From Mesorhizobium sp. M00.F.Ca.ET.216.01.1.1 (GTDB taxonomy: Bacteria; Pseudomonadota; Alphaproteobacteria; Rhizobiales; Rhizobiaceae): DNA of 64,000 nt. The notes under the pieces were generated by a model. The model saw only the letters and a list, made by a program, of their open reading frames with translations. It had not been told where the DNA came from and did no database searches. The stretch covers positions 186,001 through 250,000 of the forward strand of contig NZ_SADR02000004.1 in NCBI RefSeq assembly GCF_004010325.2. The letters run 5' to 3'. The position numbers and the translations under genes are program-made. Below are positions 1,709-11,549 of this stretch, piece by piece; the stretch's first letter is position 1, and each line of letters opens with the position of its first letter.

Positions 1709-3928
1709 ATGAGCTACACTAATTTCACCCTCGACATCGACGCCGACGGCATCGCGCTGGTCACTTGGGACATGCCCGGCCGTTCGATGAACGTCTTCAC
1801 CGAAGAGGTGATGCTGGAACTGAACGCTATCGTCGACAAAGTGGCGGGCGACGCAGCGATCAAGGGCGCGGTGATCACCTCCGGCAAGGACACCTTCTCC
1901 GGCGGCGCCGACATCACCATGCTGCAGAAGATGCTGGCGACCTTCGCCGCCGACAAATGCAGCGATCCGGAAAAGGCGACCAGGGCGCTGTTCGACAATG
2001 CCGGCTATATGACCGGTCTGTTCCGCAAGCTGGAAACCTCGGGCAAGCCGTGGGTGTCGGCTATCAACGGCACCTGCATGGGCGGCGCGTTCGAACTTTC
2101 GCTCGCATGCCATGGCCGTGTCGCGGCCGATTCCGACAAGGTCAGGATGGCGCTTCCCGAAGTGAAGATCGGCATCTTCCCGGGCGCCGGCGGCACCCAG
2201 CGCGTGCCGCGGCTGACCGACCAGCAGCAGGCGCTGCAGATGCTGACCTCCGGCCAGACGCTGTCGCCGCAGAAGGCCAAGTCGATGGGCCTGATCCACG
2301 AGATCGCCGAGCCGAACAAACTGGTCGAGACCGCCAAGGCGATGATCAGGAACGGCTTGAAGCCGGTGGCGCCGTGGGACGAGAAGGGTTTCAAGCTGCC
2401 CGGCGGCCCCATCTATTCGGCGGCCGGCGCCAATCTGTGGCCGCCGGCCATCGCCATCCTGCGCCGCGAGACCTATGGCAATTATCCTGCCGCCGCCGCG
2501 ATCCTGAAATGCGTCTATGAAGGCCTGCTGGTGCCGTTCGACACCGCCTTGCGCATCGAGCAGCGCTATTTCACCGAGATCATGCAGACCAGGGAAGCGG
2601 CGGCGATGATCCGCTCGCTGTTCGTGTCGCTGCAGGAACTGAACAAGGGCGCGCGCCGCCCCGCGGACGTGCCGGAAACCAAGTTCAAGAAGATCGGCGT
2701 GCTTGGCGCCGGCTTCATGGGCGCCGGCATCGCCTATGTCACCGCCAAGGCCGGTATACCGGTGGTGCTGCTCGACCGCGACATGGAGTCCGCCGCCAAG
2801 GGCAAGGCGCATTCGGACAGCCTGATCTCGGATCAGGTGAAGAAGGGCCGCGCCAAGCCCGAGGAGAAGGACAAGCTCTTGTCGCTGATCACGCCGACGG
2901 CCGACTATGCCGATCTCGCCGGTTGCGACCTGGTGGTGGAGGCGGTCTTCGAGGACTCGGCGGTCAAGAAGGGCGCCACCGAACAGGCGGAAGCCGTGCT
3001 GAAGCCATCGGCGATCTTTGCCTCGAACACGTCGACCATTCCGATCACCGCGTTGGCGAAGAATTCGGCGCGGCCGAAGAACTTCATCGGCATCCACTTC
3101 TTCTCGCCGGTCGACAAGATGATGCTGGTCGAGATCATCCTCGGCAAGAAGACCGGCGACAAGGCGCTCGCCGCCGCGATCGACTTCGTGCGGGCGATCA
3201 AGAAGACGCCGATCGTCGTCAACGACACGCGCGGCTTCTACGTCAATCGCTGCGTGCTGCGCTACATGTCGGAAGCCTACAAGATGCTGATCGAGGGCGT
3301 TCCGGCGCCGATGATCGAGAACGCGGCGAAGGCCGCAGGCATGCCCGTCGGACCCTTGGCGCTCACCGACGAAACGGCGATCGACCTTGCGCAGAAGATC
3401 ATGAAGCAAACCATGCGCGATCTCGGCGAGAAGGCGGTCGACCAGAGGCAGATGGCGCTGATCAACACACTGGCCGACACTCACGGCCGCTTCGGTCGCA
3501 AGAATGGCAAGGGCTTCTACGACTATCTGGCGAAGCCGGCCAAAAAGAAGCTGTGGCCGGGCCTGAAGGACCTCTATCCGCAGCTTGCACCGGAGAAGGT
3601 CGACTATGAGGAGCTGAAGCAGCGTCTCCTGGTCACCATCGCGCTGGAAGCGGCACGGGTGATGGAGGAGGGCATCGTCACCGATCCGCGCGAGGCCGAT
3701 GTCGGTTCGATCCTTGCCTTCGGCTTCGCGCCCTTTACCGGCGGTGCGCTGTCCTATATCGACGGCATCGGTGCCAAGAAATTCGTCAAGATCGCCAAGG
3801 CCCTGCAGAAGAAATACGGCGCCGAGTTCAAGGCGCCCAAGCTGCTGCTCGACATGGCCGAGAAGGGCGAGACCTTCTACAAGCGCTTTGATCCCTATGC
3901 GAAGAGCGAGGTGAAGAAAGCGGCCTGA
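1709..3928 (+). CDS. fadJ: Fatty-acid oxidation complex alpha subunit: enoyl-CoA hydratase / 3-hydroxyacyl-CoA dehydrogenase
   Basis: 739 residues with two enzymes in one chain. Residues 1 to about 310 are a crotonase domain with the oxyanion-hole segments SGGADI and [10 protein letters not shown]. Both hydratase glutamates are kept, in FELSLACH and LPEVKIG, followed by PGAGGTQ. From about residue 330 there is an NAD-binding fold ([13 protein letters not shown]) and the 3-hydroxyacyl-CoA dehydrogenase signature around SNTSTIPI and HFFSPV. It hydrates trans-2-enoyl-CoA and oxidises the L-3-hydroxyacyl-CoA, supplying the neighbouring thiolase. The gene starts 15 bp after the thiolase stop behind a GGGGAGAG ribosome site. 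Its intact hydratase residues are a useful contrast to the crotonase at 10800-11549. FadB and FadJ types are hard to separate by eye. Confidence 0.95.
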
Positions 3929-3941
3929 CGCCTGGCGGGCC

Positions 3942-4526
3942 ATGTACGTCTGGGCCCGACTCGCGCGCACGATCACCACGGCGCCTCGCCGTGGCCCTTA
4001 TGTGATGGGTGGCGAAAGCCGGCTGGCCTTTCGCTGCCTGCCGACCGACATCGATGCTAACGTCCATCTCAACAATGCACGCTACATGACGCTGGCCGAT
4101 CTCGGCCGCATCGACATTTTCGTGCGCGCGGGTCTCGTCACGCTGGCCAGGAGGAACGGCTGGGCGCCGATGATGGGCGGGCTGCAGTCGGTCTATGTGC
4201 GTGAGATCAGGTTGTGGCGGCGCTTCGAAGTGGTGTCCTCGATCGAGACCTGGGAAGGCACCGGTGTCATCGGCAAGTATCGTTTCGTCCTCGACAACGG
4301 TGAAACCGCGGCGTTGATCATGACGACCGCGGGCTTCTACGATCGTACCGGCCGCCGTTTTCTCGATATTGACGAGGTCGTCGCGGCACTTGGCCACAAG
4401 GTCCAGCCGCGTCCGCTGATGGAGGCCGAGCGGATGTTCATGACCTCGCACCAGGGACTGCGCAGCTTGGCCAAAGCAGGCGGCGCTGCAGGACTGCCGG
4501 TGGACAAATCGGCGAGCGAAGACTAG
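3942..4526 (+). CDS. Acyl-CoA thioesterase-like hotdog-fold protein
   Basis: 194 residues. The segment around residues 30 to 60, with PTDIDANVHLNNARYM, matches the 4-hydroxybenzoyl-CoA thioesterase type of hotdog domain. In that family an acidic residue and an asparagine near NVHLNN contribute to catalysis. The likely role is hydrolysis of acyl-CoA thioesters, which fits its place 13 bp after the beta-oxidation gene on the same strand, but the substrate is not evident. ATG 3942 has only a weak ribosome site; ATG 4002 would shorten the protein by 20 residues. I keep the upstream start because the first residues (MYVWARLARTI) resemble the start of this family. Confidence 0.8.
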   Translation: MYVWARLARTITTAPRRGPYVMGGESRLAFRCLPTDIDANVHLNNARYMTLADLGRIDIFVRAGLVTLARRNGWAPMMGGLQSVYVREIRLWRRFEVVSSIETWEGTGVIGKYRFVLDNGETAALIMTTAGFYDRTGRRFLDIDEVVAALGHKVQPRPLMEAERMFMTSHQGLRSLAKAGGAAGLPVDKSASED

Positions 4527-9322: not shown

Positions 9323-10054
9323 ATGAGTCAGTTCGATCGCACACTGGAATTCATCGATCAGCTGCAGCATGCCAGCACGGCGGCAGCGGTCTGCGAACAG
9401 CTGCTCGGCATCACGTCGAACTTCGGCCTGACGGCGCTGATGGCGGGAACGGTTCCGCAGCCGGGCACGCCACGCAGCCAGCAAAAGGATCACGTCCTGC
9501 TCTGCGACTGGCCGGGAGAATGGCTGGAGCGCTATGTGGCGCGCAACTATGTCGATCATGACCCTGTCGTCAGCCACATGAAGCAGCTTCAGGCGCCGTT
9601 CCAGTGGCGGGAAGCATCGGAAAGCATTCGCATCGACAAGAGCAGCGACGAGGTGATGGGCGATGCCAGCGAATTCAAGCTGCGCGATGGACTGGCCTTC
9701 CCGCTGGTCACGCTTGATGGCCAGATCGTCATGGTATCGCTGGGCGGTGAGGCCGTAGAACTGTCGGGAGCTGAGTTCGGCCTGGTGTCGCTGGCGTCAA
9801 CCTATGCGATAGGTCGTGCCATGCAGCTCCACACGATGGCCGGCAAAACCATAGATCACATAGAATTGACACCGCGCGAGCGCGAGTGCCTGCAATGGGC
9901 TGCCGTCGGCAAATCCGAATGGGAGATCTCGCAAATCCTCGGCATCTCGGAGCACACGTCCGAGAAACATCTGCTTAACGCCAAGGGCAAACTTGGTGCC
10001 GTCAACCGCGTGCAGGCCGTCGCGGAAGCGATAAGGCGCGGCTATATTAGTTAG
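9323..10054 (+). CDS. LuxR-family acyl-homoserine-lactone receptor/transcription factor
   Basis: 243 residues. Residues 1 to about 165 are the autoinducer-binding domain. The invariant ligand-pocket residues of TraR/LuxR proteins are present with the correct spacing: Trp67, Tyr71, Asp80, Pro81 and Trp95. Residues 180 to 243 are the LuxR-type DNA-binding domain (LTPRERECLQWAAVGKSEWE, then HLLNAKGKLGAVNRVQAV). It should bind an acyl-homoserine lactone and control the luxI gene 97 bp downstream, through the palindrome at 10083-10100. The arrangement luxR-luxI-crotonase matches the R1 receptor of the Mesorhizobium japonicum circuit as I recall it. Known R1 is very selective for a 2,4-dienoyl signal; whether this one is cannot be read from sequence. 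Confidence 0.93.
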   Translation: MSQFDRTLEFIDQLQHASTAAAVCEQLLGITSNFGLTALMAGTVPQPGTPRSQQKDHVLLCDWPGEWLERYVARNYVDHDPVVSHMKQLQAPFQWREASESIRIDKSSDEVMGDASEFKLRDGLAFPLVTLDGQIVMVSLGGEAVELSGAEFGLVSLASTYAIGRAMQLHTMAGKTIDHIELTPRERECLQWAAVGKSEWEISQILGISEHTSEKHLLNAKGKLGAVNRVQAVAEAIRRGYIS

Positions 10055-10082
10055 GTCGGCCATGCCGGCCTAGAAATTTTTG

Positions 10083-10100
10083 ACTACGTGATCACGTAAT
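10083..10100. promoter_or_regulatory. Candidate lux-type box upstream of luxI
   Basis: A perfect 14-bp palindrome, TACGTGATCACGTA, lies at 10085-10098. One flanking base pair on each side (A10083/T10100) also matches around a single mismatch, giving an 18-bp imperfect dyad. Its centre is 60 bp upstream of the luxI start codon. LuxR proteins bind 18 to 20 bp dyads centred about 42 bp before the transcription start, which would put the start near 10134, a plausible place. Binding by the adjacent LuxR protein is inferred. Confidence 0.65.
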
Positions 10101-10151
10101 TTTCCCGCAAAGGCCTGATCGTATCCTCCTGGTAAACCTAGGAGATAGCCG

Positions 10152-10790
10152 ATGCTTTTTTCCCTCACCACACAGGAATTGATGGAACGTCCCGACCTTT
10201 GGGAGGCCGTTCATCGTTTGCGCTACAAGATCTTCGTCGAGGAGATGGGATGGACCGATCTGAAGCGTCCCGACGGCCTCGAGATCGACCAGTTCGACCA
10301 CGACGAGGCGGTGCATCAGCTCGTCATCAGGAACGGCGAACTCGCCGGTTATCAGCGGATGTTGCCGACGACGCGAGCGCATCTTCTGACCGATGTGCTG
10401 GCGGACCTCTATGAAGGGACGCCACCGTCCGGGCCGAATATCTACGAACTGACCCGCTATGCTGTGGCGCCCGGCTTTCGTGACGGGCGGCGCGGTGTAT
10501 CGACGGTCGGCACCGAATTGATTGCCGGCTTCGTCGAGTGGGGACTGAGGCGCAACGTCAATCAGGTGATCATCGAATTCGAGCCGATGTGGGTCCTGCG
10601 CGCGCTGCAACTGCACTTCCTGGCCACGCCGCTTGGTTACCAGCGTACTTATGGCAACCAGCAGGTGGTCGCCACTTTGCTCACCTTCAACGAGCACACG
10701 CTTGATGTCGTGCGCTCGCGCCGTAATCATTTCGCACCGGTTCTGGCCAGGGGGTATCCCGACTGGCTCGGACTGAAGCAAGCTTCGTAG
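10152..10790 (+). CDS. Acyl-homoserine-lactone synthase (LuxI family)
   Basis: 212 residues, usual LuxI length. The conserved S-adenosylmethionine-site residues are all present: Arg24 and Phe28 in RLRYKIFVEE, Trp34, Asp46 and Asp49 in EIDQFDHD, Arg69, Glu99 and Arg102 in YELTRYAV. It makes an acyl-homoserine lactone from S-adenosylmethionine and an activated acyl chain. The M. japonicum I1 homologue belongs, as I recall, to the branch that uses acyl-CoA rather than acyl-ACP; the linked crotonase here supports an acyl-CoA donor. An AGGAG site lies 7 bp before the ATG. The crotonase gene follows after 9 bp. Confidence 0.95.
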   Translation: MLFSLTTQELMERPDLWEAVHRLRYKIFVEEMGWTDLKRPDGLEIDQFDHDEAVHQLVIRNGELAGYQRMLPTTRAHLLTDVLADLYEGTPPSGPNIYELTRYAVAPGFRDGRRGVSTVGTELIAGFVEWGLRRNVNQVIIEFEPMWVLRALQLHFLATPLGYQRTYGNQQVVATLLTFNEHTLDVVRSRRNHFAPVLARGYPDWLGLKQAS

Positions 10791-10799
10791 GAGGCGACC

Positions 10800-11549
10800 A
10801 TGAACGTCCATCCGCAACCAGAATTGCGCAACCATACGCTGATCGTCACCGTGTCGTCGGAGGATGGCCGGCCAGTGCTGGACAGGCGGGCCTATGAAAG
10901 CCTGGCGAAAACCTTCCATGAAGCTGCCGCCGATGACGAAGTGCGCGTCGTGCTGCTGCGTGGCCTCGCAGGCTGCTTCTGCCTCGGCGGCGACTTTTCC
11001 GAGTTTCTCGATGCCGCCAAGCATCAGCAACTGATCGCCGCCGTCACCGACATGTTTCGCACGCTGGCGACGTTCCCGAAACCGGTCCTTGCCTGCGTCG
11101 ATGGTGATGCCGTTGGCGTCGGCTGCACCATCCTGTTCCATTGCGACATGGTGATCGCGTCGAGCGAAAGCACATTCCGGGTGCCGTTTGTCGATTTCGG
11201 CCTGGTGCCGGACGCGGCGACGAGCATCCTGGCACCACAGAAACTTGGCTACGCCGGTGCTTTCCGCTTCTTTTGCCTCGGCGATACGCTCGGCGTCGAA
11301 GATGCCAAGGCGCTCGGGCTGGTTGCCGAGATCGTGGCGGACGGCAGCGTCGAGGACGCTGCTCTTGGCAGGGCAAGGCAGCTCGTCAAGAAGCCGGTCG
11401 CCGCACTGCTGCAGACGCGTGGCCTGCTCAAGGGCGACACGGGCGCGCTCTGCGACCGCATCGACCAGGAGATCTCGCTGTTCCAGCAAGCGCTGCAGGA
11501 CGACACCACCCTGAAGCGATTGCAGCGGATCGCCCGGCTGGCGGCATGA
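10800..11549 (+). CDS. Crotonase-fold acyl-CoA enzyme linked to the LuxI synthase (candidate dienoyl/enoyl-CoA isomerase)
   Basis: 249 residues with a complete crotonase fold. The oxyanion-hole segments are CFCLGGDFSEF (about 59-69) and DGDAVGVGCTILFHCD (101-116). The two glutamates needed by enoyl-CoA hydratases are absent: Thr110 and Phe130 occupy those positions. The only acid in the active-site strip is Asp138 in FGLVPD, the place of the catalytic acid in enoyl- and dienoyl-CoA isomerases. The ribosome site (AGGAGG) overlaps the luxI stop codon, so translation is tightly linked to the synthase. In the known Mesorhizobium R1-I1 circuit a gene linked to the synthase takes part in making the (2E,4E)-dodecadienoyl signal. 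The isomerase role here is my inference. Confidence 0.88.
   Translation: MNVHPQPELRNHTLIVTVSSEDGRPVLDRRAYESLAKTFHEAAADDEVRVVLLRGLAGCFCLGGDFSEFLDAAKHQQLIAAVTDMFRTLATFPKPVLACVDGDAVGVGCTILFHCDMVIASSESTFRVPFVDFGLVPDAATSILAPQKLGYAGAFRFFCLGDTLGVEDAKALGLVAEIVADGSVEDAALGRARQLVKKPVAALLQTRGLLKGDTGALCDRIDQEISLFQQALQDDTTLKRLQRIARLAA

Follow-up and report, generated by a model that had tools for sequence, protein, structure and literature searches.

This work concerns a quorum-sensing locus within a window of Mesorhizobium sp. M00.F.Ca.ET.216.01.1.1, the window being the whole stretch of 64,000 nucleotides that was analysed (C443:186001-250000 of genome G000, with an assembly of 7.24 Mb in 690 contigs). 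The locus carries R1, I1 and a crotonase gene, coding for a receptor, a signal synthase and a third enzyme. An earlier note, made from the sequence alone, had described them as a unit on one strand. All three are complete open reading frames (ORFs) on the + strand, at the positions which that note had given, and their products contain the expected Pfam domains.

Genes of the locus and their relation to a published circuit

R1 (9323..10054, + strand, 243 residues) is a LuxR-type signal receptor and activator, with matches to Autoind_bind (8e-25) and GerE (8e-16). Its best match in the Protein Data Bank (PDB) is LasR. The statement that R1 has all ligand-pocket residues holds for the set compared in the alignment with LasR, namely the W, Y, D, P, W and G that are conserved in the ligand domain. 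Downstream lies a lux box, CTACGTGATCACGTAATTTT (10084..10103, + strand). Its inner part, TACGTGATCACGTA (10085-10098), is a perfect 14-bp palindrome that occurs once within the window and was absent from the earlier note; the centre is about 60 bp upstream of the I1 ATG. I1 (10152..10790, + strand, 212 residues; Autoind_synth 1e-15) is a LuxI signal synthase, probably of the acyl-CoA type. As had been claimed, it keeps all the residues that we take to be conserved in the LuxI family (R24, F28, W34, E44, D46, D49, R69, E99, and R102). The third gene (10800..11549, + strand, 249 residues; ECH_1 1e-36) belongs to the crotonase superfamily and is predicted to encode an enoyl/dienoyl-CoA isomerase, with T110, F130, D132, and D138 at the places discussed below. 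Its ATG comes after a gap of 9 nt, and the motif TAGGAGG (10788..10794, + strand) carries both the I1 stop codon TAG and the overlapping Shine-Dalgarno sequence of the crotonase gene, in agreement with the earlier note.

The circuit of M. japonicum that the note had named does exist: in strain MAFF 303099 it consists of R1, I1, and mlr5639, with an inverted repeat 61.5 bp upstream of I1 (PMC10470506, 2023). This circuit is positively autoregulated, R1 together with the signal was shown to activate the I1 promoter, and the signal is 2E,4E-C12:2-homoserine lactone (HSL), also made by two other Mesorhizobium strains; M. loti NZP2213 is a proven producer (PMC10470506). The fragments that normally reveal a homoserine lactone were not apparent with this signal, for which a radiotracer method was available (PMC10470506). 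When mlr5639 is deleted, most of the signal is lost and little 2E,4E-C12:2-HSL remains (PMC10470506). Of nearly 500 Mesorhizobium genomes, about 90% were reported to carry R1-I1 homologues, and Nitratireductor and Methylopila to possess related units of three genes (PMC10470506). The locus is therefore not new: the circuit, its R1-I1 conservation across the genus and the idea of three components are already published. The contribution of mlr5639 to the signal was posed as a question by the circuit's own authors (PMC10470506).

M. loti DSM 2626 is a synonymous accession of NZP2213 (PMC7643969). Its locus (L130) is 92, 90, and 91% identical to that of the window in R1, I1, and the crotonase, respectively. 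Gene order and flanking genes are conserved in relatives, as the synteny check proposed in the earlier note had asked. Because identity, gene order, spacing, and the position of the lux box all match, the window locus is almost certainly, as judged from sequence, orthologous to the R1-I1-crotonase circuit of M. japonicum.

The type of I1 is indicated by its PDB matches. The best are 6wn0 (4-coumaroyl-HSL synthase, 94 bits), 5w8a/5w8c (91 bits), and 6wns (88 bits), with lower scores for 3p2f (66 bits) and LasI (53 bits). Identity to 6wn0 and to 5w8a is 34% each, over 177-183 residues. We take 6wn0 to be RpaI and 5w8a to be BjaI, and place the latter in the CoA-dependent subgroup of synthases. 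These enzymes use p-coumaroyl-CoA and isovaleryl-CoA, respectively (PMC10470506). By homology, these matches place I1 in the acyl-CoA subgroup of LuxI synthases.

The association of the three genes extends well beyond this strain. Of 119 genomes sampled from the genus, 106 carry I1 (E up to 1e-40) and 104 carry the crotonase (E up to 1e-60). Since all 104 crotonase carriers also have I1, the association is not due to chance; the only two I1 carriers devoid of crotonase are G008 and G082. Among the named loci nearest in I1 (the best 80 of 142), 77 bear the name Mesorhizobium and none that of MAFF 303099. I1 and the crotonase are present in every one of the 80, and a full R1 in 79, that of L140 being truncated at a contig end. 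The crotonase gene starts -4 to +83 nt after I1 in 143 of the 144 loci where it is full. The odd one, L075, has an I1 cut at a contig end and misplaced, so that its 626 nt gap and odd lux-box distance are artefacts. Some loci come from one genome retrieved twice; protein counts therefore refer to distinct sequences, and locus counts are not deduplicated. In a family sample of 394 genomes, with at most six first-look candidates scored per genome, the crotonase (E up to 1e-64) occurs in 24 genomes and in 9 of 109 genera. The crotonase gene directly follows an I1 of 71-83% identity at each of the 18 loci from other genera, and R1 is present at 17, the remaining one being truncated by a contig end. 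The R1-I1 gap measures 272-282 nt at 19 loci. At one of these, L107 (4700-5010), the 3' end of R1, the promoter, and the lux box appear to be tandemly duplicated, one copy of the lux box being degenerate.

Active site of the crotonase and proposed signal chemistry

Two glutamates distinguish hydratases from monofunctional isomerases, according to a study of DspI (PMC5834635). PaaG has one catalytic acid and performs 3-to-2 isomerisation (PMC4498308). In the window crotonase and its orthologues, T110, F130, D132, and D138 are invariant (112 of 112 distinct sequences). At the same places, Escherichia coli PaaG has T, F, K, and D. The hydratases PaaF and FadB, the FadB of the genome itself, and one of its paralogues (L039) have Gly at 138 and a glutamate at both 110 and 130. 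A third pattern, T, F, and Glu138, is that of the seven distant LuxI-linked crotonases described below (two of them nearly identical), of another paralogue of the genome (L035), and of the PDB relatives 4nek, 7bor, and 6lvo. It is also found in all 15 unlinked class-level relatives, in the loci of which no LuxI match was found. Finally, human and rat dienoyl-CoA isomerases, aligned by eye, have Asp, Glu, Asp, and Asp.

From these patterns, the crotonase is probably a double-bond isomerase with a single acid rather than a hydratase, because the glutamate pair of hydratases is replaced while the single acid D138 is kept, as in monofunctional isomerases of the PaaG/ECI type. One might instead picture a hydratase or dehydratase forming the 2E bond, much like synthases of the diffusible signal factor (DSF). 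The crotonase fold and the family names suit such a role, and the DSF-type enzyme DspI was proposed to dehydrate toward a 2-unsaturated signal (PMC5834635). We nevertheless reject it on the active site and hold it to be very unlikely, both catalytic glutamates being missing in every orthologue. Membership of the ECH1/DCI family of dienoyl-CoA isomerases is rejected as well, since the acids of GGGVD and VKE in the active-site stretch of 1dci and 2vre correspond to T110 and F130, so that two acids of that family are missing.

By the logic of established pathways, three rounds of beta-oxidation of cis-vaccenate followed by dehydrogenation lead to 2E,5Z-C12:2-CoA. A possible route to the signal is as follows. 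Signal-bound R1 would activate the I1-crotonase operon via the lux box, as in M. japonicum. Cis-vaccenate would be shortened by three rounds of beta-oxidation to 5Z-C12:1-CoA, which an acyl-CoA dehydrogenase would convert into 2E,5Z-C12:2-CoA. The crotonase, either by itself or following a 3E,5Z step, would then give the conjugated 2E,4E-C12:2-CoA. Finally, I1, by its kinship with CoA-type synthases, would couple this acyl-CoA to S-adenosylmethionine to yield 2E,4E-C12:2-HSL. For the overall explanation, namely an R1-I1-crotonase circuit in which an isomerase crotonase forms the 2E,4E-C12:2 chain, we estimate a probability of about 0.7. The vaccenate origin of the crotonase substrate is a separate point, which we favour slightly. 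Two isomeric signals of roseobacters, 2E,5Z-C12:2-HSL and 3E,5Z-C12:2-HSL, share the omega-7 position, and it was suggested that their bonds can move to the conjugated 2E,4E form during biosynthesis (PMC6356624).

Several points weigh against this explanation. At the places of T110 and F130, a true 3,5-to-2,4-dienoyl-CoA isomerase bears additional acids, so a second enzyme may be required for the last bond shift. A catalytic glutamate is named for PaaG (PMC4498308), but the residue aligned there in the E. coli sequence is Asp. The AlphaFold model, made for the window crotonase with 19 orthologues of 85-92% identity, is poor (mean predicted local distance difference test score, pLDDT, 45.5) and leaves the active-site geometry unsupported. 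No enzyme assay for the LuxI-linked crotonase family was found in the literature consulted; nor was a paper describing the product of this gene as an isomerase, in searches where most subscription journals lay outside coverage and some queries were weak.

The crotonase might be a 3-to-2 enoyl-CoA isomerase and nothing more, interconverting 2E,5Z and 3E,5Z chains, with a housekeeping enzyme completing the 2E,4E system. The single acid at the ECI/PaaG position and the substitution of the two dienoyl-CoA isomerase acids by T110 and F130 speak for it, as does the presence in the same genome of an isomerase-type paralogue with Glu138 (39% identity). We regard it as possible though unlikely: the close LuxI-linked group has Asp138 where the distant linked crotonases and the unlinked relatives (7 of 7 and 15 of 15) have Glu, and it shares D132 with dienoyl-CoA isomerase, features that point to a specialised reaction. 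The argument from D132 is weakened, since this residue is also found in the paralogue and in two of the 15 relatives that are unlinked.

One addition made here to the published system is a specific prediction for the mechanism of the third gene: its active site suggests a double-bond shift rather than the addition of water. The prediction offers a testable answer to the question left by the original authors, and the constancy of the active site throughout the orthologues makes that question directly testable.

History, loss, and genomic setting of the crotonase

More distant relatives were found in an order sample of 397 genomes, in which an I1 relative (E up to 1e-55) occurs in 18 and the crotonase (E up to 1e-52) in 8. 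Ten of the 18 hold more distant I1 relatives, of 47-59% identity, and in seven of these ten, belonging to four other families, a crotonase of 34-45% identity lies beside luxI. No crotonase was found beside the I1 relative of G686, G707, and G411 within the 7 kb examined. At L175, L176, and L177 (G612, G747, and G731, from another family of the order), a crotonase of 41-45% identity is directly beside an I1 relative of 52-54%. The catalytic residue of these three crotonases is Glu rather than Asp, and they possibly serve another signal. G530 has a second distant R-I-crotonase copy (L190, contig 20), the match being limited to the first 118 residues of the sister's crotonase.

In two trees, LuxI-linked crotonases (16 close and 7 distant rows) separate from all other rows (100/99); as far as these sequences tell, they are a single clade reaching four other families. 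The crotonase trees have long branches and a thin sampling of unlinked relatives. FadB rows were left out of the second, which includes 8 of the 15 unlinked relatives and the genome's own paralogue; the active-site comparison covers all 15. The crotonase-linked synthases all cluster together in the LuxI tree (95/93), in a group shared by L060 and L061, two loci that have lost the crotonase, the second copy of G530, and the unlinked L192. All but one of the neighbours of the linked synthases in this tree carry or formerly carried a crotonase. An unlinked group, including a second CoA-type luxI of the genome under study, adjoins the linked one. This pattern fits a single gain of the crotonase followed by losses, and Asp138 appears to be derived.

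The second luxI relative just mentioned (C98, L062:4660-5262) is 47% identical to I1. A LuxR-type gene lies about 3.5 kb from it, and no crotonase match was found in the 10 kb examined. With two weaker matches (L003 and L004), the genome has four LuxI matches in all.

L060 and L061, from genomes G008 and G082, are sisters in the LuxI tree (100/99). L060 retains about residues 190-249 of the crotonase and L061 about residues 1-31 plus the end; because the retained parts are different, the break points of the deletions differ. Their lux boxes have 2 of 7 palindromic pairs, and all other distinct upstream regions 4-7, except for the misplaced L075. Imperfect lux boxes, with 4-5 pairs, also occur in about a dozen loci that bear a crotonase. 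For the protein comparison and its cluster control, L075 was excluded, and for R1 also L140. At sites that do not vary among 104 other distinct I1 rows, both I1 proteins carry L83M, F143V, M146V, and A151T, and G33 is changed as well. Both R1 proteins carry M40I, G42A, M86L, G113R, V136A, M137L, H170Q, and R239H, at sites invariant in 94 Mesorhizobium rows. When Mesorhizobium rows are taken cluster by cluster, the pair has 8 such sites in R1 vs. 0-2 in the other 182 clusters, and 5 in I1 vs. 0-4 in the other 168. L142, with a stem as long as that of the pair, has 1 and 0. Of the six R1 changes that fall within the ligand domain, five align with LasR positions 36, 38, 79, 126, and 127, which we take to be pocket positions; the probability of such an enrichment is 0.0026, computed post hoc for one lineage and dependent on the list of LasR pocket positions assumed.

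These changes suggest that this lineage probably switched its signal. A sober alternative is relaxed constraint on a decaying circuit. Either way, the pair is a natural experiment on the joint change of signal, synthase, and receptor. The two genomes also show that, within the genus, I1 and R1 can change and the crotonase be lost, and one may ask if the orthologous genes of the window make an acyl-HSL other than 2E,4E-C12:2-HSL. This is quite unlikely: the window I1 and R1 keep the residues altered in the pair, and MAFF 303099 and two further Mesorhizobium strains share the same signal (PMC10470506).

A broader scenario can be drawn, which is tentative and, taken whole, more doubtful than probable. 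A housekeeping-type enoyl-CoA isomerase would have been captured once beside a CoA-type luxI in this bacterial order and would have undergone a Glu to Asp change in the Mesorhizobium branch. It would convert vaccenate-derived 2E,5Z-C12:2-CoA into the 2E,4E form, so that a single isomerase would set this dialect apart from that of roseobacters, with its 2E,5Z signal. It would then have been deleted in at least one Mesorhizobium lineage, together with changes in receptor pocket, synthase, and promoter. If this is true, crotonase-less Mesorhizobium strains should use a non-conjugated signal.

Upstream of the circuit, the window contains fadA-like (485-1693), fadB-like (1709-3928), and thioesterase-like (3942-4526) ORFs, named from a reading of their sequences. 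The fad-like ORFs lie about 7-10 kb upstream of the crotonase gene, so that the latter could be a beta-oxidation gene adjoining I1 by chance. We give this almost no credit. None of the 119 genus genomes, and none of the 18 loci from other genera, showed a crotonase orthologue without I1; the LuxI-linked crotonases make up one clade; and a published mlr5639 mutant loses the signal (PMC10470506).

The fadA-, fadB-, and lexA-like genes, lysS, terB, and a binding-protein gene are found upstream of R1 in all four crotonase-bearing Mesorhizobium stretches and all ten stretches from other genera; the thioesterase-like gene is present in all 14 except L202. Crotonase-less G008 (L215) has the same upstream backbone, and the stretch of G082 (L216) contains the binding-protein gene alone. 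None of this backbone, from fadA to the binding-protein gene, was seen in the three stretches of distant relatives (L218-L220).

Twelve of the 13 genus genomes without I1 have ppk2, and in seven of these 12 the binding-protein gene (63% or more) is beside it. L238, L239, and L241 show a clean empty site, with <200 bp between the two genes. An ORF lies between them in L233, L242, and L243 (glycosyltransferase-like) and in L237 (penicillin-binding-protein-like), these names again coming from reading. The ppk2 neighbourhood is different in the other five. Among the 12 circuit-less stretches, L233 and L242 have the complete series from fadA to phoR in the same order. Because this order also exists in circuit-less genomes, the fad genes are not specific to the circuit, and their proximity brings the proposed chemistry no evidence. 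The fad/thioesterase block looked like a substrate supply for the circuit, but its proximity is inherited background. From this comparison of circuit-bearing and circuit-less genomes, R1, I1, and the crotonase gene constitute a discrete module with a single location.

Comparison with known systems

Among LuxI synthases, the CoA-dependent RpaI and BjaI resemble I1, being its top PDB matches; no mention of a linked crotonase was found for them in the accessible parts of the literature. On the side of the third gene, PaaG and the enoyl-CoA isomerases share with it a single active-site acid and the replacement of the hydratase glutamates by T and F. PaaG differs in that it acts in phenylacetate breakdown, and the LuxI-linked crotonases form a separate clade. 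With delta3,5-delta2,4-dienoyl-CoA isomerase (2vre and 1dci), the crotonase shares the Asp of VKEVD and of LAAD, aligned by eye with D132 and D138; its T110 and F130, at the places of the GGGVD and VKE acids, set it apart from that sequence family. The DSF signal is, we assume, a fatty acid made without LuxI. Its synthases RpfF and DspI are, like the window enzyme is predicted to be, crotonase-family proteins that set the double bond of a quorum-sensing signal, but DspI keeps the glutamate pair (PMC5834635).

The closest system is the MAFF 303099 circuit. The strain is different, and the I1-crotonase gap is 9 nt here and 8 bp as stated there. Both have three genes in the same order, on one strand and closely spaced, with a CoA-type synthase, a third gene of the crotonase family, and a lux box about 60 bp upstream of I1 here vs. 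61.5 bp there. The window circuit is a true and well-conserved member of this published system.

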